A stretch of 64,000 nucleotides of DNA from assembly GCA_963921795.1 (NCBI GenBank), contig OY997658.1, positions 52,902,397 to 52,966,396 on the forward strand. Direction: 5' to 3'. The DNA is from Nannobrachium achirus. Its lineage: Eukaryota > Chordata > Actinopteri > Myctophiformes > Myctophidae. The translations under genes and the position numbers were made by a program. Positions 5,357 through 58,853 of this stretch are shown here, piece by piece (the stretch's first letter is position 1; each line of letters opens with the position of its first letter). The notes beneath the pieces are model-generated. The model did not search any database. It saw only the letters and a program-made list of their open reading frames with translations, and was not told where the DNA came from.

Positions 5357-5395
5357 AAAAATAGCAGATGTACAAGCTCACATGTAGATAATAGC
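5357..5395 (+). repeat. decayed copy of the AGCAGATCTACAAGCTCACA hairpin repeat
   Basis: The left arm reads ATAGCAGATGTACAAGCTCA and is followed by a decayed right arm (ATGTAGATAATAGC). It lies directly behind CAGTGGTTCTCAA (5347-5359), which looks like a hAT left end whose partner I could not find. Confidence 0.6.
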
Positions 5396-5840
5396 AATGG
5401 CAAAAATAATCATAATTTAATATTTCTTTAGACCAAATTTGTTACAAAAGCTTTTCAAGAATGCCATCTAACAACAGTTTTACGATTTGTGTTCACAGTG
5501 GCACATAAGTAAACATAGCATACTGTATATTAACTGCTGCAATGGGACCTGCAGTGTGGCTGTCTGTGGGTGTCATAAACAATGCAAGCTGTGAATACGA
5601 AGGAACCTGCCACCACCGATATAGACATTTCGGCAAAGGTATATATTTGGAAAGTGTGAAATGTGTTGACATCACATTCCAGAAAAGGCCAACTTGTACT
5701 TCTTATCCACCAGGAACACTCTGAGAAAGTATCCTAAACAATGTCAGATGTCTGGTGCAGCCAATAATAACCTCTGAGCATTACGCCGCAGTCTCTCCAC
5801 TCCACACACAATCCCTGTACCGCCTCCACTGTGTCTCAAC

Positions 5841-6388
5841 CAGGGACGTGCTGGGCCCCTGATTCAGCCCGGGAAAAAGAGTTGGAGAGGCCCTCATTGT
5901 GTGCTATAGAGAGAGATCTCTCTCCATAGCGCTGCTGCTACTCAAAGATTTGCCATTTCAGATCATGACAAGTGACAAGCCAGTGGGCCAATTACATGAG
6001 TTACATTTTGTCGTTGTCGGGTGGAAACCTTATATGTCCAAAACCGTTTGTTTTGTATTTATCATTTAAAGAAATCATTAAACTAGTGAAAACAGACGAT
6101 CTACAAGCACACAACGCCTCGCACCGTTTTCACTACTTTTGTGCGACGGCCTTGTATGATGAAGCAGGGCTTTGCTTTGCGAAAAAAATTACACATTTGA
6201 AACTTGGAAACACAAGGTTTCTTCTGCCCGACAGTGACGCTTTACTTTGTTGGCCGCCCAGCCCCCAAAATGGAACGAAGGCCGACATTTTATTTTAATT
6301 TTTTTCCTAATGGCCGGCCTGGACCGGTCGGGAATGAACCGGCCGTTCGGGAGTTGGCCCGCTTTTCCCAATGGCCAGCACGTCCCTG
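5841..6388. mobile_element. TIR element of unassigned superfamily with 22-bp flanking direct repeat
   Basis: The ends are perfect 14-bp inverted repeats, CAGGGACGTGCTGG. The flanks 5819-5840 and 6389-6410 are 22-bp direct repeats differing at one base and ending in CTGTGTCTCAAC. The interior (about 5998-6215) shares a block with 32395-32590, including CCTTGTATGATGAAGCAGGG, and contains a hairpin-repeat relic. No transposase is present. The CAG...CTG ends suggest hAT, but 22 bp is far longer than a hAT duplication. Confidence 0.7.
6085..6133 (+). repeat. hairpin repeat with inverted loop and missing right arm
   Basis: AGTGAAAACAG and the arm GATCTACAAGCACACA are followed by ACGCCTCGCACC and then directly by GTTTTCACT. 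The loop is the reverse complement of the loop in the copy at 32440-32507, and most of the right arm is gone. Confidence 0.75.
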
Positions 6389-6410
6389 ACCACCTCCACT
6401 GTGTCTCAAC

Positions 6411-7114
6411 TCATCCTGAATTACGTGAGCACACCAATGTATAACATTTGATGTCATGGAAGGGACACAAATAAAAGGAGGATTAAAGATACGAGAATGA
6501 GGTGAATGGAGCGCTTAATTCTCTGTGAGCGAGCGAAAGGGAGACACTAGAAGATGACACGGAGAGACGGTTAGGAACGGGGAATATTCAAAGTGTTAAC
6601 TTGTGTGACGTTGTAATTTCGTTTTTTCAACCATAGCTGTGTTGTGGCACAGTGGCAGTCAGCAAAATTACTATTATTACTATAAAATTACCATCACTGT
6701 CAAATACATATGGAGTAAAATCATCACGATTTTTACTCAGCTACACGTAATTGTATTTCTCATATACTTACTCAACCTTAGTTGATACAGTATAATTAGT
6801 TCTGCAATATCTACAATAGAAAACCATGTGATTGCTTAGACATTAAGTCCACACTTTCTGTCAGCAGTCTGCACATTTTGACTGAATTCTCTCTTTTTTT
6901 AGCTGATTGTAAAAAAAATGCAATTTTTTCATGAATTATGAATGACAGTTTAAGCAGGCCAAGAGTGGTAGCCTATCAGGTTAATGCGTTAAGCATAACT
7001 CTGTGGGCTGAATAATAAATGCTCTCAATGCCAGGTTTGTATGCAGAAGGATTCTCTCGATCATCATGTCCCGTAATTAACCAAATACATGCCTGCTGTC
7101 TCTTGTAGGCTATA
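6411..7114. other. AT-rich non-coding sequence
   Basis: No coding potential and no element ends are recognised up to the hAT target duplication at 7115. Confidence 0.5.
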
Positions 7115-7122
7115 TCTTACAT

Positions 7123-7801
7123 CAGTGGTTCCCAAACTTTTTAGCTCGAGAGACCCAAAAGAGAAATTAGACGTTTGCCCGGGACCCAAACTATTGAAAA
7201 CGGCAGATCTTCAAGCTCACAATGTGGCTATTTTCTCTTCTTCTTAGTTTGTTCTAAATTATGGAATTTCTTAGATTTTTCTTTTATTTTTTAACAGAAT
7301 TACTTACCAAGGCGTATTAAAATCAATGCATTTTTTTAAATTCAGGAATATCTTTTGAAAGTGTTTTGAAAAAATAATTAAAAACAAAATGTACAAAACA
7401 AAAATTAAGGGACCACAAAATGCTATGTTCTACCATTAATCACTGCTGTTCTCCATCGCCCTCTGCAGGACACACCATTGTAATGCTGATAAATCTGCTA
7501 ATTCATAACCATATACATATTTATATATATAAATATATATAAAAACACAATTGATGATTTCAACGGCACAAATTAGAGCACATCCAGCACTAAAGAATGA
7601 GACCCTTTTGTCCCGATTTGGAGCCAAAACATTGGGGGTGCAAGACTCAGCAAAACTATAACTTAGAATATCTCAAAAATGATACCAGCACAAATTATAA
7701 AATTTACGGCACAATTCAGCACTAAATAATGACACCATTTTTATATATGTTTTCAACATATGGGGTGCCAACTTCACGGAGGTAGTGCTTGGGAACCAGT
7801 G
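7123..7801. mobile_element. hAT (Charlie-like) non-autonomous element
   Basis: The left end CAGTGGTTCCCAAACTTTTT is the widespread Charlie-type hAT terminus. The right end, reverse-complemented, reads CACTGGTTCCCAAGCAC. Flanks TCTTACAT (7115-7122) and CCTTACAT (7802-7809) match at 7 of 8 bases. No transposase is present. A hairpin-repeat copy sits at 7196-7235. Confidence 0.85.
7196..7235 (+). repeat. hairpin repeat, right arm shortened
   Basis: GAAAACGGCAGATCTTCAAG and CTCACAAT are followed after two bases by GGCTATTTTC, so the outer right arm remains and its inner part is deleted. It lies inside the hAT at 7123-7801. Confidence 0.7.
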
Positions 7802-8117
7802 CCTTACATTGTCCCTTCCCATTCAGACTAGTGAGACTCATTTCTCTGTACCATGTGTGCCTTTATGCTCTGCACACACGTCACCATGTTGGCCAACAAC
7901 ACATCTCTGAACCGTCGCCATTTATGTATAGTGACTCGGATTCCTGTTGCGTCATTCGGCTTTTCCAAGTGGCAGGGAGATAGAGCCAGGTGTTGCCATG
8001 CCTACCAGCACTATTCCTGTACCCCCCCCATCCCCATCCCCATCCCCCTCCTCCCCACCCCCTGCCTGCCACTCATCTGCATAGATACTCTGACGCCATA
8101 TTTAACATGATCTAAAG

Positions 8118-8523
8118 CAGTGGTTCTCAACCTGTGGTTCAGGAAGTGGTCCCCAAATAATTTTGGGGGGTCCCCAGATGATTAGCTTAATGTGTAACAT
8201 TGTTTTGTCTCTCAACACTAAACAAACCAACATAAAGTTTAAGTACATATAGAGGGTATCTGCACATTTCTAAAGTGACAATTCAAGGACTTTTTAATAC
8301 CTCTAAAATGAGAAATTAAACATTGGCCAAATTGTCAAACATTAGAGGCAGAAATTGTGAAAATAGACGATCTACATGCGAGCATGTAGATTGGCTATTT
8401 TCACAATAGAACCGTGTTATACACAAGGTAATTCCTCAACTCTTAGTGCTCATAGGGTGGGGGGTCGCCAGTTAAAATATGATTATTTTGGGGGTTGTGG
8501 CCTGAAAAGGTTGAGAACCCCTG
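8118..8523. mobile_element. hAT non-autonomous element (406 bp)
   Basis: The left end is CAGTGGTTCTCAACCTGTGG and the right end, reverse-complemented, is CAGGGGTTCTCAACCTTTTC. A perfect 8-bp flanking repeat ATCTAAAG lies at 8110-8117 and 8524-8531. No frame is present. A complete small hairpin repeat sits near its right end. Confidence 0.93.
8354..8407. repeat. complete hairpin repeat (54 bp)
   Basis: ATTGTGAAAATAG at the left is answered by CTATTTTCACAAT at the right. Between them GATCTACATGC / GCATGTAGAT completes the stem with almost no loop. The outermost ATTGTG/CACAAT pair is specific to this locus, so the palindrome extends into flank sequence. Confidence 0.85.
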
Positions 8524-8531
8524 ATCTAAAG

Positions 8532-9406
8532 CTCTGGTAAAAAAAAGCAGCAGTTTGGGGGGATGGGGGGAGACAGCAGGGGAGAGGTAGAGTCCCAACT
8601 TCATCTTCTAGATTAATCCCTGACATCTGGTGCATCGCAAGGCCTAGTTAGTAACCCTCTGCCCGTTTCAAACTATCACTTTCAGAGTAAAATGAGCACA
8701 GATTTGACCGCATTGAATGTGTTTCATTGCACGTTTATCACAATACAGCATGAGGTCAAATGCATGAAGTCATCGCTTTTTTATTTATTCTGTGCATTAT
8801 GTAGATGTTTATGCGTTTGTGTATTAATAGTTTAAGAAATACAGTGTGGCCTGCATATATCCCGTGTAGACCTTTTTGTAATCAACTATGACTGATCATG
8901 CACATGAGGCACGTGATAAGGTGTGAGACCGCAGCGCATATGAACGTATACCCGGAAGCGGGTACAGTGAAAGGTGAGCATATTGCATCGGGAGGGGATA
9001 AAAAAAAAGGGAGGGGGGGAAGGTGGTCCTTGACACCTATTGGTTGATTTAACAGAGAGCCCTGGTTGCAGACTGCACTGAGGAAGACAAATTGATTGTG
9101 GGGAGAGAATAGACAGAGAAGGTCATGGGATGGTGCTAGAGTCAGCTAGGTACTGTCTACTAACTGTGAGCTCCTTATCCTGGCTAAATGCTGCTACATC
9201 ATTATGTTCACTTTAGGCCTTGAAGGTCCCAGCTCATAAAGACAGCTCCTGATTGATTGATTGATTGATTAAGTACTTTCTTAGGAGTTTGCATATAGGA
9301 AAAGGTACAGGACAGTGCAGTTCACTGATACTAAAAGGATAAAGATCACAAGAAAGCTCGCTGGCTTGTTTAAATTGGGATCCCTTGTATGCAATTCTCA
9401 TGCAAC
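8532..9406. other. non-coding sequence, nothing recognised
   Basis: Short G-rich runs and a four-unit GATTGATT tract (about 9250-9270) are present. No gene or element end was found. Confidence 0.5.
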
Positions 9407-9409
9407 TAA

Positions 9410-9674
9410 AGGCCGTTGCACACTGCTGCGTTTTTCGGGCCAAATATCGCAGTGAATTTCGGAGCGCGGAAAAACAAAAATCAACCTCACGTTATGACAA
9501 TCACGTTTGCACACTGCTGCCTGTTTCGTATTTATTTTTGGACCAGGGTTGATTTTCGCAACTGGGTCCCCTGCTCTCTCTCTCTCTTCTCTCTCTCTCC
9601 TTGGCCTGAAACGTGCTTTAGAGGATTTGGGATTTCCAAAACAACGAAAAACGCAGTGCAATGTGCAACCAGCT
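9410..9674. mobile_element. PIF/Harbinger-like MITE (265 bp)
   Basis: The ends AGGCCGTTGCACACTGCTGC and, reverse-complemented, AGCTGGTTGCACATTGCACT are flanked by a 3-bp TAA on both sides (9407-9409, 9675-9677), the target size of PIF/Harbinger. A second internal block GTTTGCACACTGCTGC (about 9507) partly repeats the left terminus. It has no transposase. Confidence 0.7.
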
Positions 9675-9677
9675 TAA

Positions 9678-10610
9678 ACCCACATCTGACCCACAGCCAC
9701 CCAAGCTCACGTCAAACACTTGCCAATGCCTCCATTTAGAAATGTGTACAGGAACGTTGCTGTAACTATAAACACAAAATCAGCAGGAATCGCAGCTTTG
9801 TAAATGTATTTTCAAATAAATATTCCTGTATGCTTTGTTTTTTACATACAGTATAATTTATAATGTGCACTATAAATCAAGTGTAGGATCGCCAAAACAC
9901 TTCCTACTAAAAAGGGGTTCTGTTAAAGAACCACCTGAGATATAATGTTTGTTTATGGCTCTGTAGGAGGCTAGCCTTGTATAGGAGCATTATGTGCCTG
10001 TTGTTGTGTCCATATATGGGCATGTTACGTTTGTGACGCCCCACATCCACAGTCCACCCACGAGGCAATGTTAATAGGCCTATAGGATTGTCAGACAAGA
10101 AGACATTTGATTCTGGAACCAAACTTGTCAAATACTCAGCTATGTCAATAATAGAGTTTGACAGTGTAAAATTGCATGGATTGTTTGCTTAATTTCATTG
10201 AATCTGTCACAGCCGGCGGCCGATTCTATTTCAGTTCCAGACAAATATGCCATTTGATACATTTATTCTGTATTTCCATGGGTGTCTTCTCATTGATTGG
10301 CAGAAAAGAGAAGAGGTATGGATAATACCAGGCAATTCATGGGAGGCGAAGGTTATTCTTGGTAGGTTCTTCATCATAATTCAGGCCATTTACAGCAGTT
10401 TTTGCCATTTGAAGAAATCAAACCATCAATCCAAATTCAACGAAGCGTGCAGGAAGTGAGTCCCTGTATCTTGTGCGTAACCTGCCAGCGCCGTGCCCCA
10501 TGTACCCCACCACACACAGCCCAAGTGGCATGCCCTGTTTAACAGTGCATATTTCACTGCACTTACCGGTACCTCGATTTTTGTGGTCCTCTCACTTCTT
10601 GTGCATGTTG
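9678..10610. other. non-coding sequence with one CArG-like site
   Basis: No gene is seen. A perfect CCATATATGG occurs at 10010-10019. Confidence 0.5.
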
Positions 10611-10652
10611 TGCACGCACGCACGCACACACGCACACACACACACACACACA
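10611..10652. repeat. (CACG)n/(CA)n microsatellite
   Basis: GCAC units pass into CA units immediately before the element at 10653. This obscures any target duplication there. Confidence 0.9.
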
Positions 10653-11775
10653 CAGGGGTGGCTCGGTATCAACATTTTGTTATCGCGGTTACCGTCCTCC
10701 CATTTACCGCCGGTATTGCGATAATTACCGCACCCCCGTATCTATTAATTAAGGTTCGGCAAGACAAAATATTCCTATCATCTGCCCAAAATTCGTCTCT
10801 CCACGGTCCTATAAGCCCGACTGCTCGAGTTCCCCGTACAGCACAGTGGGTCTGGCTTTTGAAAGTAGCAGATCTACAAGCTCACAACGCGTCGCGTTCG
10901 CAACGCGTTCTGAGCTTGTAGATCTTTGCAGTGTCGGGTTACTATAGTAACGTAGGCTACAGAGGCGTCAATTGGGTATGGCAAGCTATGGCACCTGCCA
11001 TACCTAGGCTACAGGGGGAAATAATAAAATGTACTTTCATCGTGCCTGTTGCTAAGGTATGGCAACATGACTGGTGTCTGTCATGTTGCCATACCTTAGC
11101 TTTTTCTGAACTGACGCCACTGGTAGGCTACTGGGGCTTCAGACACTGCACGTTGTTTGTGAACAAACCAGATGAGACGGGTATAGTGATTGTGTACGGT
11201 CTGTGATTATGCAAACTCACGTCTCAAATCGCATTGATTGAGTGGTGTAAACATAGTAAACAGGTTTTAGTTACCAGACTTGACAGAAAAGGTTGTAGTC
11301 GAACAACGACGGGCACACGCGCTACTGTAAAAGTACTCACGTCTAGCGCTGGTTTCATTTTCGGTTTTAGTCCTCGCGCTCCGCCCGTATGAATAAAAAA
11401 GAAACGGCCACGAGGTATGTATAAACATACTTGTGTGAGTTGTGTCGTGTGGATTATGGAGAAAGTTTAACGCTGCTGTCTGCTGACGCTACGAGGCTAC
11501 TGCACTGCTCCAGTGTCTAGTCTACTGTGTCTCACTCTCTGTCGGAGACTGTGACGGCCAAGCTTCCAATTGTTCCAAACATATGGTGCGCGGCCCAGAG
11601 CAGAGCGGCATGAAGCTCATGCGGTCCTCGCTTCTCCCCCGTTTTAAAACTCGCTCGTTCTCAATAAAAATAGACTATTTTTTGTCTTTTTTGACCGCGG
11701 TAAGGACCCTGACACCGCGGTAGGCCGCGGTATACCGCGATACGGCGGTACGGCGGTTACCGAACCCAGCCCTTG
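10653..11775. mobile_element. hAT-like TIR element with CGGTA-rich ends
   Basis: The left end is CAGGGGTGGCTCGGTAT and the right end, reverse-complemented, is CAAGGGCTGGGTTCGGTAAC. Both subterminal regions repeat CGGTA/TACCG words, as transposase-binding regions often do. The flanks lie in CA-repeat sequence, so the 8-bp duplication cannot be confirmed. No transposase frame is present. A second inverted block, GCTAAGGTATGGCAACATGA and its complement, lies at about 11050-11100. Confidence 0.6.
10860..10931. repeat. complete hairpin repeat (72 bp)
   Basis: The left arm has AGCAGATCTACAAGCTCACA then ACGCGTCGCG. The right arm, reverse-complemented, reads AGATCTACAAGCTCAGAACG. The central part holds two ACGCG words. 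It lies within the TIR element 10653-11775. Confidence 0.85.
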
Positions 11776-11779
11776 ACAC

Positions 11780-12308
11780 CAGTGTTGATTTCGTCTACTA
11801 AAACTCTGACGAAAAATGTTTGTCGACTGCATTTTTTTCACTGACGAAAACTAAATAAAAACGAAGCCGTGATGACTAAAACTAAGACTAAATATATTGA
11901 CAATTTCGTCAACAAAATAAAAACTAGACTAAAACATTAGGGAGAGCCTAGTGGAGAAGAGAGTCATTTTATGTTTGGTTGTTCTCAGGTATTGCGTGCT
12001 GAAAATAGCAGATCTACAAGCTCACAACGCGTCGCAGCGTGACACGTTGTGAGCTGGTAGATCTGCTATTTTCAGCACACAACCAAGTGTAAAATCAGTC
12101 ATTATGATGACAACAAGGCCTGCCAAAATACATTTCAGTCGACTAAATCAACTGTAGATTTAGACGCCTAAAATCTTATGATATTTAGTCGACTAAAATT
12201 AGACCAAAACTAAAAACTTTTCAGGTGACAAAAATTAAAACTAAATTACAGGTTATTCAAAAGACTTTGACTAAAACTAAATCAAAATTCACTGTCAAAA
12301 ACAACAGT

Positions 12309-12309
<1 letters not shown>
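11780..12309. mobile_element. hAT-like repeat of ACTAAAAC/GTCGACTAAA words
   Basis: The left end CAGTGTTGATTTCGTCTACT and the right end, reverse-complemented CACTGTTGTTTTTGAC, enclose many GACTAAAACTAA and GTCGACTAAA words. This resembles a very abundant fish DNA-transposon repeat (from memory). The flanks are CA repeat, so the target duplication is uncertain. A complete hairpin repeat interrupts it at 11996-12078. Confidence 0.6.
11996..12078. repeat. complete hairpin repeat (83 bp), best-preserved copy
   Basis: The left arm GTGCTGAAAATAGC then AGATCTACAAGCTCACAACG is matched by a right arm with only two mismatches, around the loop GTCGCAGCGTGAC. The outer GTGCTG/CAGCAC pairing is peculiar to this copy. 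Confidence 0.9.

Positions 12310-12370
<61 letters not shown>
12310..12370. repeat. (CA)n microsatellite
   Basis: About 30 uninterrupted CA units. Frames through it are artefacts. Confidence 0.97.
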
Positions 12371-12374
<4 letters not shown>

Positions 12375-12646
12375 TAATAGCTCCCTATTTTTGCACAAAT
12401 GAGTGTAAGACTATCATTACACAGACGGGGACAGGGATGGGCACGGGGATGGGGATGGAGACAAGGGGGGGGGGGGGGGGGGGGGGGTTGATTGAGCTCT
12501 CCCAGTGTGACTTCCCTGCAGGAACTATCCATTACCATTTCTCTGACCATGTCCTCTGCGGGTAATTCTCTCCTGTGCAGCCTCAACCCCTTCTAATGGC
12601 TGTCAGTTGTAGGGAGCCAATTAACATGTTGTGTGCCCATGAGAAG

Positions 12647-12683
<37 letters not shown>

Positions 12684-12917
12684 CCCACCTCCACACAACA
12701 CTTTCCTCCATCCTCCTCGGTTTCGCTTTCCTCTGTGTCTTGTTTTCTTCTTGGTTTTTTTTTTTTTTTTTGTCACACTGGCTAGCTGGTGGGTAGAGCC
12801 AGGAGGCTCAATTACCTTTTAAGGATGTTAGCGGCCGCGTGCGCTCACGTCAGAACCGTCTCCTATAGCTTCCTCCGCCATTAGAGACCCCGGCCTGCTA
12901 AGTGCGTGAAGTTGGGG

Positions 12918-12948
<31 letters not shown>

Positions 12949-13747
12949 CAGAACAGGAGGAGGTGTTGTGCTGGTGGCGTGCAGCGGCAACAAGGAGGTG
13001 GGGGTTGAATTTCTAAGTGATCTAATCCGGTGTGTATCTGCAGGAGAGTCTCGCTATTGTTGTCCCCTGTTTCCCCTGGAGAAAGCGTAAACTCAATCTC
13101 TATCTCTTCTCTGCACAAACTGGTGATGAACGGATAGACTGATGAATGGATAGGTGGTGGATGGTAGGGCGGGCGGGCAGACAGACAGACAGACAGACAG
13201 ACGCCATTGCCCTCCTCTGTTGCTAATGGATATATTCTGTAAGCATCTGCTGGACACACACGCACGCACGCACGCACGCACGCACACATTCCCTCTGCAG
13301 TGCTCTAAAAGTGACAGGAGTCTCATTTCTCTCCAAAAGCCCTTGAATATGATTGAAAATGATTAAGGATTACTGTGATTATGCTAAGCATACATTTCAT
13401 ATCTTACTCACCATACCTGTAACTTTCACTAGCCCCCCTCCAAAAATATCTAGGCCTATAGGCTATATATTTTTTTTTATTTGGGTTGGTGGGGGCCAGC
13501 CAGTAGCCCCCCGCGGGCCGCAAATGGCCCGTGGGCCGCCTATTGGGGTACCCTGGTGTAAACAGTGTTTGGCTCCAGCTCCCCACTCCCCAGCAGTGTC
13601 ATCCTTTGCCAGACAAGTGTGCACTTGGTTCCATGTATTGTCACATGCATTCGCCCCGGCATTGTTATCCAGACTGACTTCAAATGAGTGAGCAGGTGCC
13701 CATGCAGTGTCATAGGATGTTTAAAAGGCCTCTGTGTTTCTTTATTA
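12371..13747. other. non-coding sequence with homopolymer and short tandem tracts
   Basis: It contains a G run at about 12465-12487, a C run at 12648-12680, a T run near 12757, a G run at 12914-12939, CAGA units at 13176-13202 and CACG units at 13255-13287. At about 13500-13555 GCGGGCCGCAAATGGCCC resembles an internal block of Charlie-type hAT repeats, without ends. Open frames here are low-complexity artefacts. Confidence 0.6.
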
Positions 13748-13755
13748 CTTGTTGA

Positions 13756-13850
13756 CAGGGGCGCTGGAAGTGGGGTGCTGAGGGAGCTGCAGCTCCCCTG
13801 GTGGTGGGGAGGAGAAAAATAAATGTTTCGATTGAGAGAAAAAAAAAGAA

Positions 13851-13881
<31 letters not shown>

Positions 13882-14457
13882 TTTTTTTTATTTTTTTATA
13901 GGCCTATATATACACACACAGAGCTATATTAAAACAATAATGTATTTGACTTTGGGGAATAAAATATGTTGAAAAAAGGTGTTTGATTATCACATGGTCA
14001 CCTAATCACCTTGCCACCTCCGGTCAGAAGGGAAGTCAAATTTAAATCTTGTTTTAAAATAAATCCTGCTTTGATGGCACACCAAAGTCTATTTATTTGA
14101 GAACTAGAAACTGTCTGTAGGCTCATTATTGCAAACTAACACTGTTGTATATGGGTAATAAAAAACTGTAGAAAACTGTTACAAAGATAATACCTGATTT
14201 TGTAGTGTGTGCGTGAGTGACTGTGTGTGTGTGTGTGTGTGTGCGTGTGTGTGTGTGTGTGTGCGTGTGTCTGTGTGCTGTGTGTTGCACTGTATGCTAA
14301 AATAACTAGTAGTTATACAGCTCCTTGTTACACCGTAGTGCAGGGAATAAGCACCCGAAACCGTAATAAAAATAACCCAAAACCGGATAAAAAACGTGAA
14401 TTTTCCAACTCCTCCAAGCTCAGCTCCCCTTGGGATTTGGGAGTTCCAGCGCCCCTG
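13756..14457. mobile_element. hAT non-autonomous element (702 bp)
   Basis: Perfect 14-bp inverted ends CAGGGGCGCTGGAA are flanked by a perfect 8-bp repeat CTTGTTGA (13748-13755, 14458-14465). The interior is AT-rich with AT and TG microsatellites (13850-13871, 14217-14275). No transposase is present. Confidence 0.93.
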
Positions 14458-14465
14458 CTTGTTGA

Positions 14466-16046
14466 GCATCAATCAAACCGCTCTCAAAGTCGCTTACAAC
14501 TTTGAACAACGACAAATGCACTTCATCGATACAAACATCCATGGTGGGCGGGTGCTCTATTCCTGCGCCACCCGAGCATGATTAGACTTTTAAGAAGAGG
14601 GGTGAACCAGGCAAGGGCATTCTCTTTGTAGTTGGTCCTCCACCAGGGGTCACTGTTGTGCAGGGAGATCCCTTAACCCCTACTGAAGAGATCGATGAGT
14701 ACGTCTCCATATAGGAGTCACTCCTTTCCTCTATTGCTCTTCCTTTGCCTCTTCCTGCCTTTGTTCTTTCTTTCTTACCTGCATGTCTCTGTCCCTTCCC
14801 TCCACTCTGTTCATATGTGATGCTCTCAAGTGTGCGTGCGTGCGTGTGTGCGTGCGTGCGTGTGTGCATGTGTGATTATACTGTCCAGTGTGGAACACCA
14901 GCCAGTGTTTCTGTTGTTGTTTTAATCTGTGCTGAAGTCATAATCAAGACAATAGATATTATTTGGTAACCCTAACCCTAACCCTTTATAATTATGTCCC
15001 CCCTTGCCAGAGGGATGCAGCAAACAGGCAGAGCTCTCTAATAATAGATGATTATATGGTTTAGCATGATGTGCCCAGTTCAACCACGACTGCTTGTGTC
15101 CTAATATTTCTACTATGTGTGGTGGATACGCAGGGGTACAAATAAGGTACTTTAACATCTTATTTATGATGAAACATATGTTTACTTTAAATTAATTGTA
15201 TAGTGTGTTTTGCTCTCGTAATCCCTCCAGTGAGAACAATTTATTTGGATCAAACTGATCCCAATCCCATGTTTTTGTTTTGAACTACCCGTTTTGAAGA
15301 TTTGATTCAGATTAAAGCTTAGATTTGATATCCTGATTTCTGATCCCAATCTCTGATCCCAATCCTGATATTTAGTTTATACCCTTAATCAGATAGGGAT
15401 TTAAAGTTTTGACCTCATGGGCCAGGCTGGAGATAGGTTTGGTGACATTAGTTACCCTGCAAGGATAGCGTTCGTCAGTGGTGGCACTGATTGCTACGGG
15501 ATTTGATTAACTGTCTACTCCAAATAAGATAGTAAGACAATAGAATTGAGATAACATCACATTCTCTCCATGGGTCAGTGGTAGGCCTATTGTGGTTTCT
15601 GCACTTCTCTCAGATGTTATGCCTCACCTATAGGACATTTCCAGTGTTCATTGTGTTCATTCCACTGTGCTATTTCTTAAAGCAATTATGACATGATGTT
15701 TTTACCAAAAATACAATTCTTTGTCCTGGTCCTTAAAACGTGTATTAAAAGGTTTTAATTGAAAATTCCATCCAGTGAGCCATGGCATTTTTTTTCTCCT
15801 CTCTCTCTGTGTTCTGAGGCCTTTTGACTAGCAAAGATAATATACCTAGATTCCTGTATGGGTGGCGTAGTTCAGGCACTTTCCTGTTAACCGTTGCCTC
15901 TCAATGGAACGCAACAACCAAAGCGGTAAATGGTGCATTGGAACGATACAAACACAGTGGAACATAACAGCAAAGGTGATACACCCTCCCCTACAACCAC
16001 ACCCTCCCCTGAACGATGGGATTACAGAAAAAAAAAACACTGAATT
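14466..16046. other. non-coding sequence with a short telomere-like tract
   Basis: It includes TGCG/TG units at about 14830-14875, three CCCTAA-type units at 14969-14987, and repeated CTGATCCCAATC words at about 15240-15370. No gene was recognised. Confidence 0.5.
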
Positions 16047-16072
16047 TGTTTGTAGATCTGCTGTTTTCAAAC
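16047..16072 (-). repeat. half copy of the hairpin repeat
   Basis: TTTGTAGATCTGCTGTTTTC is the right arm only. It lies exactly where the TACTTTTACTTT repeat begins. Confidence 0.65.
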
Positions 16073-16241
16073 ATTTTGTACTTTTACTTTTAGTATGCTA
16101 CTTTAAGTACATTTTGATGCCAATACTTTTGTACTTTTACTCAAGTACATTTTGAATTCTGGACTTTTACTTGTAACGGAGTACATAATACTGCAGTATT
16201 GATTCAGAATGATTGGTCAACCCACTGAGGAGAAAATGGAT

Positions 16242-16243
16242 GC

Positions 16244-16316
<73 letters not shown>

Positions 16317-16317
16317 G
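16242..16317. repeat. (CAGA)n microsatellite
   Basis: About 19 uninterrupted CAGA units. Confidence 0.97.
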
Positions 16318-16828
16318 TGGTAGAACTACTGAATTCTCCCTTAATTCTTCAAAGCAGCTCTAATATACTATAAGAAGGGAAGTGAGCTCTATAAGCAGAT
16401 GGGTTTCTTTCTGAATTAGCTGCTTCCCTAATTAAGACCTAATATTTAGCAAAGGGGTGTCAGGGTAAACACGACCCCCATCCCCCTCTTAACCCCGCCG
16501 TTCTGTTCACAGGTCATCTTCCCGCCATAGGCAATCTCTTCATGATGACTCTTAACTAGGACAGCGCCGGCCCTTTCAGAGGGCGGCCTGTGGGCAAGAC
16601 TCTACGCTAAAGCTCATTAGTCACCTTCCTACACAAATTTATTCACCGCAGATTACAAACCATGGATTTAATTGCGGGGAAAACCATGGCCCGGTAAATC
16701 ATTCATTGATGATATGCACTTTTCATCAGTGCTGCTATTTCTCCAAGCGGTACGAGAAGAGCAGACTCAAACTAATAACTGCACATTATCATCAGTGACG
16801 GAAAACATTAATCACATGTTGTACTTAA

Positions 16829-17098
16829 AGGAGTGGTGACACCGGCCCGAAATTTAACATTATGGTACAGTAGGTCACGTGGTCTTTGTTGAAACGGTTT
16901 GGAAAGGGGGTGGAGCTCAAAGTATGCAGTATGGGGGCTCTGTGTTGCTGCCGACACGCCCATACAGCTACTGTAGCTGTATGGGCGTGTCGGCAGCATC
17001 ATTTGATTGGATAATTTAACATGGGGGTACATGACATCATTAAAAAAAATGCTAATTTGATAGCCATAATTAGCTGTTTTGGCCGTGTCACGCCCCCT
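16829..17098. mobile_element. T2/Kolobok-like MITE (270 bp)
   Basis: TTAA lies on both sides (16825-16828, 17099-17102). The ends AGGAGTGGTGACACCGGCC and, reverse-complemented, AGGGGGCGTGACACGGCC give TTAAAGGAG and TTAAAGGGG. These match the TTAAAGGRR terminus known for T2 MITEs of the Kolobok superfamily. It contains the perfect palindrome at 16946-16998. Confidence 0.8.
16946..16998. repeat. perfect 53-bp palindrome
   Basis: The arms 16946-16971 and 16973-16998 are exact inverted complements of 26 bp around a single central T. The left arm begins TGCTGCCGACACGCCCATAC. Confidence 0.97.
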
Positions 17099-17227
17099 TT
17101 AAATAAAAGTAAAAGTAACGAAATTCATAATGTTCTTGAGTAAAAGTATTAAAGCATCAAAATGTACTTAAAGTGCCAAAAGTGAAAGTACTCATTATGC
17201 AAGTTTTCAAATGTATAACATCTTTTT

Positions 17228-17278
17228 TAAATAGCAGATCCACAAGCTCACAATGCAAATTGTGAGCTTAGGCTATAG
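17228..17278. repeat. hairpin repeat with partly decayed right arm
   Basis: AATAGCAGATCCACAAGCTC and ACAATG are followed by CAAATTGTGAGCTTAGGCTAT, giving an inner stem CACAAT/ATTGTG. It lies inside the ACTTTTACTC composite repeat. Confidence 0.75.
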
Positions 17279-18303
17279 GGTTTCAAATGGCCAAAAGGTA
17301 TATAGGGCTGAAGTGGTTAATGTATGCTTGCTGTGTAATAATAATCAAAATCTACTAGTAACTAAGTAACTAGTAATTAAAGTTTTCAAATAATTGTAGT
17401 GGAGTAAAAGTACACTATCTGGAACCGAGATCAGGGTTTCCGCTAGGCATTTTTGGGGCCGGCCACCTTGGCCGGCAGGATTATATTTTACCGGCCAATC
17501 AATTAATTTATCGGCCATATTATATTGAACGTCACATACGTGTTTGCAGATGAGATACTGTATATGCATGGTGCACCCAACTGATAATTACACCATTTTA
17601 TGTTTGCGCTGGGCTTCCTTCCTCTTTATCACAGATGCAATTGCAATAGCCTATGTTCCAACAAAATAATATCCTAACTATCTACTTATGTAGAGGTATC
17701 GCTTGCCAAAAAAAGAAGTGAATAGGTTAAAGTGCGCGCGCAACTCAAGCGAACCGTTTGCGCGCCCTGCCAAACAGTGGCCTACAAATTAATAAGTTAA
17801 TAGCCTAGTAGACTATATGATTTTGGCTTCACGTCTCATTAAACCTTTTACACACAACATTTGTTTTATTTTGTTAATGATGGCGCAAGGAAGGTTGACT
17901 TGCCTCTGTTGCTTTGACCACGATGGCATCACATCCATGCGACCAGAAAGTCATGTGCGTGCAGCGTGCTTGTATAGTCTAATATCCATGTGATTCCACA
18001 GAGTTCGGGTCCCTTTTTGCCAGACCCAGGGGGTCGGCCTACATAAGGCTTTGTCGGTCTGTCGGTCTGTCGGTCGGTCGGTCGGTCCCTCTTTTCCTCA
18101 GTGTCCCTCTTTTCCTCAGTGTGCCTGTGTTTGCCTCTGACTGCTCATCTGCCCCTCCCTTCCCTTGCTCGGCTGATTGCCTTGAGTGCCGTCACCTGTA
18201 CGGGACCAGCTGAGTTGAGTTGGCTGACGAGCTGCTGAGACTATAAATTCCTGTGTGTTCATGTGTTAGTTCAGTGCTGCAAAACATTTGCCCCACAGCC
18301 ATA

Positions 18304-18338
18304 CTAGTGAAAACAGCCCATCTACAAGCTCACAAACA
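18304..18338 (+). repeat. hairpin repeat, left arm only
   Basis: CTAGTGAAAACAGCCCATCT then ACAAGCTCACAAAC; no right arm follows. Confidence 0.65.
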
Positions 18339-18396
18339 TTTCCAGCTGCTCAGCCTATAAAATCCTGTGTGTTCATGTGTTAGTTCAGTGCCATAC

Positions 18397-18431
18397 TAGT
18401 CAAAACAGCCGATCTACAAGCTCACTACGCT
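18397..18431 (+). repeat. hairpin repeat, left arm only
   Basis: CTAGTCAAAACAGCCGATCT then ACAAGCTCACTACG; part of the tandem unit. Confidence 0.65.
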
Positions 18432-18636
18432 TTGTTGCTGAGACTAAACCCTTAGCACTACAGAAAAAGAATCAATGAATACATGAAGCTAGTTAGCATT
18501 TGTTTTTGTTTTTTAGGTTTTTTCAGAACTTTGATTATATTGTGTTTTTTCTAGATAGATATCCATTTGCATTTGTTATATTGTTGATGATGTACTGACA
18601 TATTATCTTGTTTATTATTGTGATGTTATCTGCTTA

Positions 18637-18692
18637 TTGTAAGTCGCTTTGGATTAAAAGCGTCTGCTAAATGCCTAAACTGTAAACTGTAA
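18637..18692 (+). repeat. LINE/SINE 3' tail (L2-type)
   Basis: TTGTAAGTCGCTTTGGATTA then AAAGCGTCTGCTAAATG is the conserved tail shared by many fish SINEs and their partner LINEs. It is followed by a short CTGTAAA tandem. The body is not recognisable here. Confidence 0.75.
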
Positions 18693-18733
18693 CTATAAAA
18701 TCCTGTGTGTTCATGTGTTAGTTCAGTGCCATA

Positions 18734-18769
18734 CTAGTGAAAACAGCCGATCTACAAGCTCACTACGCT
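18734..18769 (+). repeat. hairpin repeat, left arm only
   Basis: CTAGTGAAAACAGCCGATCT then ACAAGCTCACTACGC; part of the tandem unit. Confidence 0.65.
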
Positions 18770-19014
18770 TTGTTGCTGAGACTATAAAATCCTGTGTGTT
18801 CATGTGTTAGTTCAGTGCCATACTAGTTTTAATTGCGGGTCTGGCACAACCAGGTGACCTGGTCTAGTTTATTATCGTCTACTTTTAGATTACCTCGGAA
18901 GAACCCCAGTTCTGTTCTGATTATAACACTAAACCCACGCTGATTGTTACAAGGTGCTGGAACTGTCAGCTGTGAAACCTGATGTGTGATTCTCCGTAAG
19001 GCCGTGTGCGTGTC

Positions 19015-19086
19015 TAAAATAGCAGACATACAAGCTCACAGCGCGGCGCGTTTCGCCTTGTTGTGAGCTTGAAGCTCTGATATTTC
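19015..19086. repeat. complete hairpin repeat, moderately diverged
   Basis: The left arm AAAATAGCAGACATACAAGC then TCACAGCGCGGCGCG is paired with a right arm CTTGTTGTGAGCTTGAAGCT then CTGATATTT. It lies in the hAT 17432-19687. Confidence 0.75.
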
Positions 19087-19142
19087 CAATGCGCGTAACC
19101 ATCGTACGACGAATATAGTCTGATCTAATGCGCACAGCACAG

Positions 19143-45137: not shown

Positions 45138-45342
45138 TACCACATAAAGATGTTGTTTTTGCCACATAAAGATGCCATTATTACCACATAAAGATGTCAT
45201 TATTATTTATTACCACATAAAGGTGTCATTTTTACCACATAAAGATGTCGTTTTTACCACATAAAGATGCCGTTATTACCACATAAAGATGTCATTATTA
45301 CCACATAAATATGTAATTTTTACCACATGCAGATACTGAAGT
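45138..45342 (+). repeat. about 21-bp minisatellite, eight to nine units
   Basis: The unit ACCACATAAAGATGTC then RTTWTT recurs with small changes. The fourth spacing is expanded by TATTTATT. Confidence 0.93.
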
Positions 45343-45372
45343 GATTAGAATGGGTGTGGTGCTGTTAGATGT

Positions 45373-51283: not shown

Positions 51284-51299
51284 CACACGCGCACACACG

Positions 51300-51381: not shown

Positions 51382-51382
<1 letters not shown>

Positions 51383-52227: not shown

Positions 52228-52235
52228 TGATGAAG

Positions 52236-52776: not shown

Positions 52777-53745
52777 TCTATCTATAAATGCGACAAATCT
52801 CTGCGTGTCTGTCTGCGTGTATGTAACCCGCGTATCTCGAGAACCGTTCGTCCCACCGGCTTCAGATTCGGCACGCGCGTTCCCCGCCGCGGCACGGAGT
52901 GCAGTGCCGGGTCTCGACCCGACCCGACGCGCGGTTTTCCCGAACCGGCGCGAAACGTTCGGAATCTCCTTATGCGGGGTTGATTGTTGACATCAGGCTG
53001 TTCCGGAGGAAATCGGCGAAAGCTCTGACTCATTGTGACATCACTTCATAAAAGGCTCTGACATCACGTACGCCACATGAGTCAACAAAAAATCTCTGTG
53101 ATTGTGTATGTAACCCACGGGCACGCGCGTTCTCCATATATGGGCATAAAATGAATGCCCCCATATATGGGCATAAAATGGATTGCAGACAGACAGATAC
53201 AGATATCTCCATATATGGACATAAATGGACAGAGGCAAACAGATGTTCAAAGATCTCCATATATGGGCATAAAATGGACGCAGACAGACAGATACAGATA
53301 TCTCCATATATGGGCATAAATGGACACAGGCAAACAGATGTTCAAAACGGGTCCTATGACAACAGGTATAATGAGGTTTGCATTAAAGGGGGAACCGGCA
53401 CTGTGTCTGCAACACAGTTGGAGGCACAGACAGATACTCCATATATGGGCATAAAATGGACGCAGATAGACAGATATCTCCATATATGGGCATAAAATGG
53501 ACCCAGAACTATAACTGCAGTGATCTCCATATATGGACATAAAATGGACGCCGACAGACAGACAGACAGATACAGATATCTCCATATATGGGCATAAATG
53601 GACACAGGCAGACAGATGGTCAAAACGGGTCCTATGAAAACAGGTATAATGGGGTTTGCATTAAAGGGCGGGGCATTCATTCCCTATTTACATTGTTCCG
53701 AGTTGGCCAGGTCGCCGACTAGCTTTCGGGCGGCCCAGCTTCTAG
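52777..53745 (+). mobile_element. probable non-autonomous Helitron (969 bp)
   Basis: The 5' end is A then TCTATCTATAAATGCGACAA. The 3' end has a 7-bp stem GGTCGCC / GGCGGCC (53710-53716, 53729-53735, one G-T pair), six bases, then CTAG (53742-53745) followed by T. This fits Helitron rules: 5' TC, 3' hairpin plus CTRR, insertion between A and T, no TIR and no target duplication. There is no Rep/helicase frame. The right half is a minisatellite with CCATATATGG sites. Confidence 0.65.
53125..53600 (+). repeat. minisatellite with nine perfect CCATATATGG sites
   Basis: Units of about 45-50 bp read CAGATATCTCCATATATGGG then CATAAAATGGACGCAGACAG. The perfect sites begin at 53134, 53161, 53209, 53257, 53304, 53439, 53480, 53527 and 53582. 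A larger unit including AACGGGTCCTATGA is duplicated at about 53281-53400 and 53550-53670. Confidence 0.92.
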
Positions 53746-53987: not shown

Positions 53988-54062
<75 letters not shown>

Positions 54063-54706: not shown

Positions 54707-54868
54707 GGGTCAATCTAGCTCTGGTCCATCGCGTCTCCTCCCGGAGACGCTCTGACAGACCCGTCGGGAAATGGCTAGACTCGAGATTGTCGGCCCCTCC
54801 GAGCGCTCAACATCAGTCAAAATAAACTAAACTACTTCACCGCAACCCGGAAATAAGCGGCAGTCGAG

Positions 54869-57800
54869 TTGGATGCACTTTATTTCATGCCAAAAATAAT
54901 GTATTTTATCTCAAGAGCCGGAGCTGTTATTCAGTCATTTATAGAAGCGTATGCATTATTTGACCCATGGCGGAAAAACAACCCTGCTACTAAACAATAT
55001 TCATTCTTCTCACCTGTGCATCATTCGTACAGTAGGATTGATTTTTTCCTGTTAGATAATAGAACTCTCCCTCTAGTAAAGGACAGTAAATACAATAGCA
55101 TTGTCATATCTGACCATAGTCCGGTACAACTGGACATTAACTTCCCAGAATGCGTCAGACCCCAACGCACCTGGAGGTTTGATCCTATGATGCTGTCTAG
55201 AGAATCCTTTAAAAAGCTAATTTCTCAACAGATTGATTTCTTCTTGGAAATAAACCAGACTCCTGACATGTCGCTATCTATAGTCTGGGAGGCTCTTAAA
55301 GCTTTTCTCAGAGGCCAGATCATATCCTATACAGCCCACGAGAGGAAAAAATACAAACAACGCTTGAACGACTTGACTGACAAAATAGCAGAAGTGGACC
55401 GTTTATATGCAGACGCCCCAACACCTGAACTCTACAGAGAAAAACTACTGTTAAAGACAGAACATGACAGCCTCACTATTAAGAACACAGAGAGGCTGTT
55501 CTTCAAATCTAGACAGAAATTTTACGAACATGGTGAAAAATCTGGGAAATTATTAGCGCATCAGATAAGACAGGCGGCAGCTAATAGCGCCATCCCTGAA
55601 ATCATAACGGCAACAGGGGAGAAGACCATTAATCCAATAGAAATAAATGACCAGTTTAAACAATTTTATACAACCCTCTATACATCAGAACCACCTGCTG
55701 ACCCACTAAGTGTCGAAGCGTTCTTAGACGGCTTAATTATACCAGAGATTTCTCCAGAGGAACAAAAGTGGATAGATAAAGAGATATCGGCAGCCGAAGT
55801 TCTAAAAGCAATCAAATCAATGCAGAGTGGCAAAGCGCCGGGGCCCGATGGCTTTTCGATCGAAATATATAAGGAATTCGCTGATAAATTAGCTCCGATT
55901 CTCAGTCAATTATACATGGAAATATTTGAGCAGTGTCACCTACCTCAAACTATGACGCAGGCCATCATATCGGTACTGCTTAAAAAAGACAAAGACCCCT
56001 TATCATGCGGCTCCTACCGTCCAATAAGCTTGTTAAATTGTGACTACAAAATCCTCACTAAAATATTAGCCACCCGTATTGAATCGGTGATTCCATCAGT
56101 AATTTCTCATGATCAAACAGGTTTTATTCCAGGCCGTCAGTCATTTTACAACATGCGTCGCTTGTTTAACATCCTATATACACCCCATTCTGAAAATCAG
56201 CCAAAGGTCACAGAGGTCGTGATCTCGCTTGACGCCGCCAAAGCATTCGACCGCGTTGAATGGCAGTATCTATTTACAGTTCTGGAGAGATTTGGGTTCG
56301 GTCCGTCGTTTCTAACTTGGATTAAAATAATATGTAAGTCACCCATGGCTGCTGTACGGACGAATAACAACATTTCTGATTATTTCCCACTTTATAGGTC
56401 CTGCAGACAGGGTTGTGGACTCTCCCCATTCCTGTTCGATTTAGCGATTGAACCTCTTGCTATAACTATTCGGACAGATGACGACATTAAGGGTATCTCT
56501 AGAGGGGGCAGAATTCATAAGCTATCGCTATATGCGGACGACCTACTTCTGTATATATCCAACCCGGCACAGTCGATACCAAAAGTATTACTTACTCTGG
56601 AGAACTTTGGCCACCTGTCAGGTTACAAGCTAAACTATTCAAAAAGTGTACTTTTTCCAATCACTCACACAGACGAAGTTTACTCCAATTTCCCATTTAA
56701 ACTTGAACTTAAAGCATTCACTTATCTAGGAGTGAGAGTCACTAATACAATGGAGGAACTATATAATTATAATTTCAAAACGCTGACTGAACGAACAACA
56801 CAAGACTTCAAGAGATGGTCGACACTACCGATTTCATTAGCTGGTCGCATTAATATAGTTAAAATGACAATTCTACCCAGATTTCTCTATCTCTTCCAAA
56901 TGATCCCTATATTTATATCTAAAGCAACGTTTAAACAATTAGACAGATTAATTTCATCCTTTATTTGGAATAATAAGAACCCCAGAATGAAAAAAATGTA
57001 TCTAGAAGTCCCTAGAGATGCTGGGGGCCTGGGATTACCCAACTTCCTCTGGTATTACTGGGCGGCGAATATTGCTAAGTTTCCATATTGGAGATACACA
57101 TATGAACACGAACAGGGCCCACACTGGGTTCACATGGAGTTACTATCCAAACCTCTGCCAATGCTCACCTCTCCTTTACCATTCGGCCAAATCACACAGC
57201 CCACAAACCCGGTGGTTAAATCCTCACTCAAAATATGGCTACAGTTTAGGAAACATTTTGGGTTAAGACAGCCAAGTAGGTTTCTCCCTGTGCTCAACAA
57301 TCCTCTCTTCCCCCCATCTGTGATGGATAATGCATTTCAGTGTTGGCATCGGAATGGATTGGTGTTCTTTAGTGACCTGTTTCCGGATGATGCATTCATC
57401 TCTTTTGAAACGCTTTGTGCAGATCACGATATACCCAGGACCCATCGCTTTAGGTTCTTTCAGATCCGTAGTTTCACCCAGAAAATGTTTACTTCATACC
57501 CATGCATGCCACCCAAGAACCATTTGGATGTTATTTTAGAATTTCGCCCCTCTGACAAAAAACAAGTGTCTATGATTTATTCTTACATAGGTGACCTGAA
57601 ACAGGTAACTTGGGATAAGGCGAAGACTGCCTGGGAGAGAGATCTGGGTGAAGAGTTTTCAGAGGAGATGTGGGAGAGCAGTCTACAACGCATTCACTCG
57701 TCTTCCATGTGCATACGCCATGGTCTGATTCAATTTAAAATACTACACAGACTCCACTATTCAGGGGAAAAGCTGGCCAGATTATTCAACATTCCGGACC

Positions 57801-58207
57801 CTGGCTGCCCGAGATGTAGCCAGACCCCAGCCTCATTAGGCCACTTGTTCTGGACATGCCCTAAGCTGGAGAACTACTGGAGAGAAATATTCGATATGCT
57901 TTCACGTATATGTGGAACAGAAATAACTCCTTCTTTCCACACAGCCATTTTTGGCATAATTCCCCCCGATTGCTCAGTCACACCTCCTCAATCGAATGCG
58001 GTGGCATTTGCCTCCTTGCTGGCTCGCAGACTAATTCTTCTTAATTGGAAATCCAAAAAGCCGCCCTCTTTCTCACAATGGCTGAAGGAGGTCCTCTCCT
58101 TCATACCGTTAGAGAAACTCAGGTATAAAGTCAAGGGAGCCAGCAAGAACTTTGTCCTAGCTTGGACCCCTCTTATTGCCTTTGCTGAGGAACATCCCTT
58201 TAACTAA
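54869..58207 (+). CDS. L1/Tx1-type LINE ORF2 protein, 5'-truncated (partial endonuclease, intact reverse transcriptase)
   Basis: This 1,112-codon frame encodes the copying enzyme of a non-LTR retrotransposon. The first 13 codons, opening with TTG, are host sequence. LINE-derived residues start at about S15, so there is no native start and the N-terminal endonuclease half is lost. The last endonuclease motifs remain: SRIDFFLLDN near residue 55 and SDHSPV near 86. Reverse transcriptase blocks follow: GKAPGPDGF near 321, SYRPISLLNCDYKILTKILA near 382, LDAAKAFDRV near 453, QGCGLSPFLFDLA near 514 and the catalytic YADD at 555-558. A C-terminal CPRC...H....C zinc motif lies near 980-997, then a TAA stop. 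The IWNNKNPR and GGLGLPN motifs are L1-like. There are no internal stops or frameshifts, which suggests recent insertion. Upstream ORF1 is absent, so this copy cannot move alone. Confidence 0.93.
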   Translation: MDALYFMPKIMYFISRAGAVIQSFIEAYALFDPWRKNNPATKQYSFFSPVHHSYSRIDFFLLDNRTLPLVKDSKYNSIVISDHSPVQLDINFPECVRPQRTWRFDPMMLSRESFKKLISQQIDFFLEINQTPDMSLSIVWEALKAFLRGQIISYTAHERKKYKQRLNDLTDKIAEVDRLYADAPTPELYREKLLLKTEHDSLTIKNTERLFFKSRQKFYEHGEKSGKLLAHQIRQAAANSAIPEIITATGEKTINPIEINDQFKQFYTTLYTSEPPADPLSVEAFLDGLIIPEISPEEQKWIDKEISAAEVLKAIKSMQSGKAPGPDGFSIEIYKEFADKLAPILSQLYMEIFEQCHLPQTMTQAIISVLLKKDKDPLSCGSYRPISLLNCDYKILTKILATRIESVIPSVISHDQTGFIPGRQSFYNMRRLFNILYTPHSENQPKVTEVVISLDAAKAFDRVEWQYLFTVLERFGFGPSFLTWIKIICKSPMAAVRTNNNISDYFPLYRSCRQGCGLSPFLFDLAIEPLAITIRTDDDIKGISRGGRIHKLSLYADDLLLYISNPAQSIPKVLLTLENFGHLSGYKLNYSKSVLFPITHTDEVYSNFPFKLELKAFTYLGVRVTNTMEELYNYNFKTLTERTTQDFKRWSTLPISLAGRINIVKMTILPRFLYLFQMIPIFISKATFKQLDRLISSFIWNNKNPRMKKMYLEVPRDAGGLGLPNFLWYYWAANIAKFPYWRYTYEHEQGPHWVHMELLSKPLPMLTSPLPFGQITQPTNPVVKSSLKIWLQFRKHFGLRQPSRFLPVLNNPLFPPSVMDNAFQCWHRNGLVFFSDLFPDDAFISFETLCADHDIPRTHRFRFFQIRSFTQKMFTSYPCMPPKNHLDVILEFRPSDKKQVSMIYSYIGDLKQVTWDKAKTAWERDLGEEFSEEMWESSLQRIHSSSMCIRHGLIQFKILHRLHYSGEKLARLFNIPDPGCPRCSQTPASLGHLFWTCPKLENYWREIFDMLSRICGTEITPSFHTAIFGIIPPDCSVTPPQSNAVAFASLLARRLILLNWKSKKPPSFSQWLKEVLSFIPLEKLRYKVKGASKNFVLAWTPLIAFAEEHPFN

Positions 58208-58478
58208 GTATTAGATTGTACTGTGCTTATCTACTCTGTCTTTTTGAAGCCACTGTTGTATGAAGGTGGCGGGAGTTGTCCCTGTCCAAGAGTGTAATAT
58301 CCTGTCCTACTGCTTACGTTTGCTTTTGTTTTTATGTTTTGTTTGTATATTGTCTGTTTTCTGTGTTTTCTTTTTAGCCTAGGGGGGGTGGGGCGGGTGG
58401 GTGGAAGGGGTTGTTTGTATGTGATGATGTTGTAAAATTTGAAAATTGAAAAATAAAGTCATAAAAAAAAAAAATAAT
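54909..58478 (+). mobile_element. 5'-truncated L1/Tx1 LINE insertion with 14-bp target duplication
   Basis: The 14-bp direct repeat AATAATGTATTTTA lies at 54895-54908 and 58479-58492. The 3' UTR (58208-58450) includes a GT/T-rich stretch and a G-rich run near 58382. AATAAA at 58452-58457 is followed by an A-rich tail. Truncation at the 5' end, an A tail and a 14-bp duplication are standard products of target-primed reverse transcription. Confidence 0.93.
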
Positions 58479-58719
58479 AATAATGTATTTTACAGAGTAG
58501 GTGGGGTGCTGAGGGGTTCACCACCACGGAGAATAGACTTTCAACAACGCAACACTACCTTTGGTTTGGTGAGTAGTGAAACAGTTTTGTTTATTTTGAC
58601 TGATGTTGAGCACTCGGAGGGGCCGACAATCTCGAGTCCAGCCATTTCCCGACGGGTCTGTCAGAGCGTCTCCGGGAGGAGACGCGATGGACCAGAGCTA
58701 GGGTCAATCAGTTGCACGT

Positions 58720-58790
58720 GTAACGCCCGGGATTCAAACCCGAGTCTCCCGTATGAAAGTCTCACTCCCGCGTGAAAGTCTCACTCCCGC
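58720..58790 (-). repeat. possible tRNA-like or SINE relic
   Basis: On the minus strand, GAGACTCGGGTTTGAATCCC resembles the end of a tRNA variable loop and T arm (GGTTTGAATCC). No acceptor stem or good A box is apparent. The duplicated GAAAGTCTCACTCCCG on the plus strand suggests a short repeat instead. Confidence 0.25.
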
Positions 58791-58853
58791 GTGAAGGTCT
58801 CACAACGCGTCGCGCTGCGACCCGTTGTGAGCTTGGAGGTTGGCTATTTTCGA
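58790..58853. repeat. hairpin repeat, left arm shortened
   Basis: CTCACAACGCGTCGCGCTGC then GACCCGTTGTGAGCTTGGAG and GTTGGCTATTTTCGA: the inner stem is complete and the right arm is present, while the left outer arm is reduced to GTGAAGGT. Confidence 0.75.

Follow-up and report, generated by a model that had tools for sequence, protein, structure and literature searches.

The 64,000-nucleotide stretch of Nannobrachium achirus DNA considered here (contig OY997658.1, positions 52,902,397 to 52,966,396; hereafter the window) carries copies or pieces of a self-complementary hairpin of ~75 bases, which an earlier note had picked out at 16 places. This hairpin is probably an internal, palindromic component of miniature inverted-repeat transposable elements (MITEs) of the hAT type, several non-autonomous families of which would carry it as a passenger; it would be maintained by copying of one arm from the other, and lost from individual host copies by deletion. 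A scan with an arm consensus of 30 bases, allowing at most 8 mismatches, recovered 15 of the 16 sites, the one at 40736 being a partial arm; all five places listed as full palindromes (8354, 10860, 11996, 19015 and 32440) were recovered as paired arms.

The sites are given here in order, with the strand where one was assigned. A hAT-like end, CAGTGGTTCTCAA, lies immediately beside a decayed hairpin (5346-5405, +). The next host is a 548-bp hAT-type MITE of the family designated C (5841-6388, +), with the terminal inverted repeat (TIR) CAGGGACGTGC and a decayed hairpin at 6087, of which a left arm and the remainder of a right arm are preserved (6085-6128, +). This host sits between 22-bp direct duplications with one mismatch (5819-6410). 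Another hAT-type MITE (7123-7801, +) has the ends CAGTGGTTCCCAA and CACTGGTTCCCAA, the flanks TCTTACAT and CCTTACAT, which form an 8-bp duplication with one mismatch, and a hairpin remnant at 7195. It is followed by a hAT MITE of family 8354 (8118-8523, +), 406 bp long, with the TIR CAGTGGTTCTCAACCT / CAGGGGTTCTCAACCT and an exact target-site duplication (TSD), ATCTAAAG, on both sides; its hairpin (8354-8407) is a full palindrome of short-loop form with the arm variant CTACATGC. One arm base has decayed in the hairpin at 10856-10936. The best full palindrome of the window (11996-12078), in which family-specific GTGC/GCAC bases extend beyond the common stem, is enclosed in a hAT-like MITE with the ends CAGTGTTGATTTCG and CAGTGAATTTTG (11780-12294, +).

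Further along, a single arm (16040-16069, -) has the flank of fam1, a family of hAT MITEs beginning with CAGTGGTG, and a decayed hairpin (17226-17278, +) has a fam1-like flank. Three single left arms at 18308, 18400 and 18738 (18304-18767, +) lie in a local duplication, and their CTAG flanks resemble those of family C; beside these arms, at 18626-18680, lies a UnaL2 3' element of a long interspersed nuclear element (LINE; Rfam RF00436, just above the gathering score). An older full hairpin with several mismatches (19010-19092) and a single arm (19323-19352, +) precede a second family C host piece (32396-32590, +), whose hairpin spans 32438-32509. Some copies belong to longer repeats, among them those at 6085 and 32440, which have flanks in common on both sides. 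The last two sites are the short partial arm, with 16 of 18 bases (40738-40755, -), and a hairpin of the 'CCTCC' subfamily (58790-58853), which carries AACCTCCAAGC in its arm and may have the right end of its host near 59098 (GCACGTGCCTG).

The hairpin comprises a stem of ~34 bp that is common to the families and a 3-base tip; essentially nothing lies between the arms, as the note had stated. At the foot of the stem stand ~6-8 family-specific bases, which tend to pair. Among the 53 arm pairs recovered, 24 are exactly 71 bp long, and 23 of these (one decayed copy was excluded) align without gaps over 34 paired positions and the 3-base tip, with 91.2% of cells paired. The two arms change together: compensated change was found in 15 of the 34 pairs, as compared with 7.4 +/- 1.6 after shuffling, and none of 500 shuffles reached as high. 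Changes diagnostic of subfamilies (GACCTCC, CTACATGC, AAGCACAC and CTCRCAGCGCGGCAC) occur in both arms of one copy. At one chosen stem position, the base is changed in both arms of 1,999 hairpins genome-wide and in one arm only of 1,227; among the matches listed, 49 of 50 hairpins changed in both arms are complementary, and most resemble one subfamily, so that these figures, too, reflect lineages and not separate events. At the foot, 38 non-redundant pairs out of 52 were compared: flank positions 3-8 match at a rate of 0.456, as against 0.305 +/- 0.032 when the partners are shuffled, and positions 9-14 show no tendency to pair (0.228 versus 0.258). When folded as DNA, the five full palindromes of the window reach -20 to -40 kcal/mol, against shuffle means of -3 to -11, and lie 5.0 to 11.8 standard deviations below the shuffles; the best-preserved one, at 11996-12078, folds at -40.5 kcal/mol (shuffles, -11.1). 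The 3-base tip follows a pattern of its own: among the matches listed, 60 centres of 29 nt were typed, and 49 of them read ANC or the complementary GNT. The middle base of the tip is near-evenly any of the four despite the well-conserved stem.

The assembly searched for the arm comprises 1.66 Gb in 564 contigs, the window being part of contig 21. A 20-mer from the arm core, with at most 3 mismatches, occurs 645,931 times (323,613 and 322,318 on the two strands), as compared with 49 times (23 and 26) for the reversed pattern, and the strict palindromic centre CACAACG-N(0-20)-CGTTGTG occurs 65,064 times, as compared with 654 for its control. The window holds 13 core matches where 0.02 would be expected. 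A chance origin of the arm matches is ruled out by these reversed-pattern controls, centre counts and the window expectation. The density is 0.39 per kb over the whole assembly, 0.20 per kb in the window and 0.24 per kb in 20 random 10-kb pieces (48 core matches; 12.7 kb masked). Because the window and the random pieces both fall below the genome mean, the window is not enriched for the arm. The mean may be raised by local clusters, for example eleven identical centres at 2.32-2.51 Mb of contig 1. All eleven (C1:2320835-2508071) have the same rare, asymmetric form of the hairpin centre. Intervals of 8-10 kb separate most of them, and a group of five on one strand is followed by a group of six on the opposite strand, which marks a large local, partly inverted duplication. 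Sampled sequence totalling 357 kb, of which 93 kb was chosen non-randomly around two host families, contains 168 arms, namely 53 paired hairpins and 62 unpaired arms; the reversed consensus gave 3 matches. One exact arm pattern searched against viral contigs and one against prokaryotic genome contigs found no match, which is the expected outcome for a fish-like genome. With ~646,000 recognisable arms, on average one per 2.6 kb, the hairpin is a major component of the genome sequence and could form DNA cruciforms and double-stranded RNA hairpins at closely spaced sites.

The surroundings of the arms are diverse. The outward flanks of the 168 sampled arms fall into 25 multi-copy groups and 58 single flanks. 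Genome-wide there are 5,737 exact matches to the arm TGAAAATAGCAGATCTACAAGCTCACAA in which the base seven positions ahead of it is other than A, and 57 different 7-base flanks were found among the 100 such matches listed. Where the limits of the surrounding element could be traced, the hairpin is internal to a hAT-type MITE of 377-741 bp (one deleted form has 228 bp) with short TIRs of the CA(G)NG or CAGKG type (CAGGGACGTGC, CAGGGGCGTCAC, CAGTGGTTCTCAACC and CAGTGGTG). Of the earlier description as an ultra-short repeat, the real and very abundant palindrome stands, and the claim of a stand-alone repeat far smaller than ordinary MITEs is wrong or at least unsupported, since its copies with drawable borders lie inside elements of this size. 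Exact 8-bp TSDs together with TIRs bound two family C hosts (L006 3647-4095, ACGACACC; L040 1878-2442, CAAAGTAG), one CCTCC host (L039 90-531, AAGACAGA), two family Y hosts (L045 1785-2279, CCCATGGG; L005 9259-9680, GTTCTTAG) and one host of family 8354 (L015 8841-9267, TACTATAT); the TSD of a fam1 host (L049 406-782) has 1 mismatch.

These hosts belong to a known kind. Like other hAT MITEs, they have CAGKG-type TIRs, mostly an 8-bp TSD, a length of 377-741 bp and a high copy number; they differ in that a ~75-bp internal palindrome is the only sequence common to at least five families with dissimilar bodies and four kinds of ends. In a BLAST comparison (E 1e-3) of 11 host copies from five families (C, CCTCC, Y, 8354 and fam1), matches between families are confined to the hairpin, reaching at most ~14 bp beyond it, whereas copies within a family match along their bodies and are ~75-98% alike. 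The suggestion that the hairpin is not a piece of one transposon family is thus borne out by its presence inside at least five dissimilar ones.

Several hosts have unusual structures. The family Y element in L045 (1785-2279), a hAT MITE of 495 bp, contains two inversely placed hairpins. L034 2566-2793 resembles this element after loss of the middle part that separates them, and L005 9259-9680 resembles a version of it whose second hairpin has collapsed. The hairpin-bearing host in L034 lies between 18-19-bp direct duplications (2548-2812). The idea that MITE ends are freely swapped at the hairpin, as at a universal joint, was based on one flank module being paired with four others, and is mostly rejected, the Y element in L045 having two hairpins. 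In family X (L007 and L013), the hairpin and inner flank are as in Y and the outer end is different, which is weak evidence for end exchange.

How could one palindrome have come to reside in such dissimilar elements? In the reading that we favour, it would have entered at least five MITE lineages as a unit, either by capture during repair, when a cut or copied hairpin is taken into a transposon gap, or by its own insertion. A hAT transposase acting in trans, as membership of the superfamily suggests, would then copy the whole MITE, and the hairpin would be amplified as a passenger; its high copy number would follow from this position inside transposase-mobilised MITEs, which would have spread it over hundreds of thousands of sites. 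The hAT dimerisation domain PF05699 is common in the genome: of 1,653 candidates, 150 were scored, all above the cut-off, with open frames of up to 1,005 aa. During replication, a polymerase may switch from arm to arm so that one arm is re-copied onto the other, as the pairing data and published work suggest. Such re-copying would preserve the match between the arms even as their sequence changes over time, and would push the palindrome a few bases into the flank of each host. Finally, the hairpin would be deleted repeatedly through short repeats in host copies.

Several observations weigh against this account. Most of the compensated changes are diagnostic of subfamilies and hence count lineages rather than independent events. 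Although its borders are as in L039, the host at L022 730-1171 showed no TSD, and the host of the best-preserved window copy (11780-12294) has hAT-like ends without a matching 8-bp TSD. Two hosts are flanked by direct duplications of 18-22 bp rather than 8 bp. An automated test for TSD plus TIR was passed by 9 of the 53 hairpins and also by 28 of 300 positions drawn at random; by itself this test is non-discriminating, and the case therefore rests on individual hosts and alignments. For 58 of the 168 arms, the flank has no relatives in the sample and no host was identified. The short end CAGGGACGTGC is common to families C and CCTCC, which may share a driver; hence five families represent four kinds of ends. 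No autonomous hAT with the hairpin or host ends was among the sequences read, which did not cover the flanks of PF05699 genes. Lastly, the 23 family C copies in the sampled loci comprise 13 empty copies, 3 remnants and 7 filled copies, in loci mostly chosen with an empty-site query.

These empty copies bear on an alternative, in which the hairpin would be an ultra-short foldback transposon in its own right, inserting itself, perhaps with duplication of a TA target, and often landing inside MITEs. Five families with dissimilar bodies, among which no similarity other than the palindrome was detected, are what such an element would produce, and the family C junctions look as a TA duplication would make them. 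Empty copies, retrieved as contiguous hairpin-less matches to a joined-flank query at up to 98%, read AAAC-TA-CTTTTG, and filled copies read AAAC-TA-GTGAAAACAGC...GCTGTTTTCAC-TA-CTTTTG. However, 11,080 exact right flanks of family C occur genome-wide, and all 100 among the matches listed (from 0.5-15.8 Mb of contig 1) adjoin hairpin sequence, none being clean-empty. A tree was built from six longer host copies, of which two are filled, three are empty and one is a remnant; in it the filled window copy is joined by one of the empties (support 0.93), and the remaining two empties lie elsewhere. In this family the hairpin stands between 4-bp ACTA repeats, so that deletion explains the empty copies; their polyphyly in the tree fits recurrent loss between these repeats. 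Hairpin-less copies of family 8354 (15 loci) show several different short junctions, some common to two or three copies, and such ragged junctions are as expected of short-repeat deletion. Thus, no single ancestral empty junction was found in either family tested (the six-copy tree and 100 listed flanks for C; 15 loci for 8354), and by inspection the families have no TSD or end sequence of the hairpin in common, a TA-like duplication being seen in family C and no consistent repeat in the others. For family C at least, the hairpin is an integral component, and the copies without it look like losses. Self-insertion with TA duplication is weakened by the ragged 8354 junctions, the listed C flanks and the polyphyletic empties, and we regard a foldback transposon as unlikely.

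Another possibility is that a single ancient hAT ancestor had a central palindrome, which selection preserved, for example as a structure bound by transposase or a host factor or as an RNA hairpin, while the flanks and TIRs diverged. The recurrence across host families of both the hairpin sequence and an A/C asymmetry between its arms, the maintained pairing, the internal position in all hosts drawn and the like ends of C and CCTCC agree with such descent. The absence of any BLAST similarity between the host bodies of different families, when copies within families are so alike, argues against it, as does the presence of two hairpins in the Y host and one, at different offsets, in the others. 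Common descent with all other similarity lost is less likely than capture or own insertion, and the ancient-ancestor scenario as a whole seems quite improbable. Still further from the data is a family of structural RNAs or microRNA precursors spread by retroposition or transposition. As RNA, the hairpin is very stable (of 7 copies folded, the most stable reached -69.6 kcal/mol), and the copy at 8354 matches the mir-4662 model weakly, at 24.3 bits; this is far under the gathering score of 97, and an Rfam scan of window positions 5000-20000 gave no hairpin match at gathering level. Moreover, no poly(A) tails stand beside the copies inspected and the hosts drawn are DNA transposons, which makes an RNA family very unlikely.

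Our preferred interpretation, of a passenger module kept matched by arm copying, admits a bolder version, in which the 75-bp hairpin parasitises elements that are themselves parasites and passes whole from one DNA-transposon family to another, dissimilar one. It would do so either by inserting itself or through hairpin-guided copying while a hAT gap is repaired, and the transposase of the current host would then have amplified it to several hundred thousand arms. We offer this version tentatively and consider it somewhat doubtful. A palindrome common to dissimilar MITE families nevertheless makes it testable whether a passenger sequence jumps between transposon families, and the many copies constitute a natural experiment on template switching that keeps the arms matched.

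Comparable elements are familiar from fish. Work by Izsvak and colleagues in 1999 reportedly described a group of inverted-repeat elements in teleosts, Angel among them, as short, highly palindromic and abundant, and is said to have proposed a hairpin-based model of amplification for elements of the Angel type. Angel is a longer element in its own right, whereas the present palindrome rides in several hAT families; the two are set apart here by description. Atlantic cod likewise has abundant hAT-derived MITEs, which lie at inversion breakpoints (PMC12368964); these belong to one family in tandem arrays, and the abstract of that study describes no hairpin common to several families. Template switching has been proposed as both maker and keeper of hairpins (PMC8794818), with homogenisation of inverted-repeat arms and inversion of the spacer (PMC8794818, PMC8604942). 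In these two papers, arms are kept complementary by copying of one from the other, as suggested here, but in RNA genes and yeast coding sequence rather than in a dispersed transposon module. By title and the start of the abstract, no description of the present repeat was recognised in the open literature, which does not amount to absence from print.

The window contains other repeats as well. At 54715-58701, an open reverse-transcriptase frame of 1,112 aa (RVT_1, 6e-37) stands between 126-bp inverted repeats that are 96% alike, an arrangement unusual for a LINE-like element. Minisatellites are located at 22102-22275 (29-bp period), 45106-45344 (~22-bp) and 53106-53668 (47-48-bp), and CA, GA and CAGA microsatellites are very numerous.

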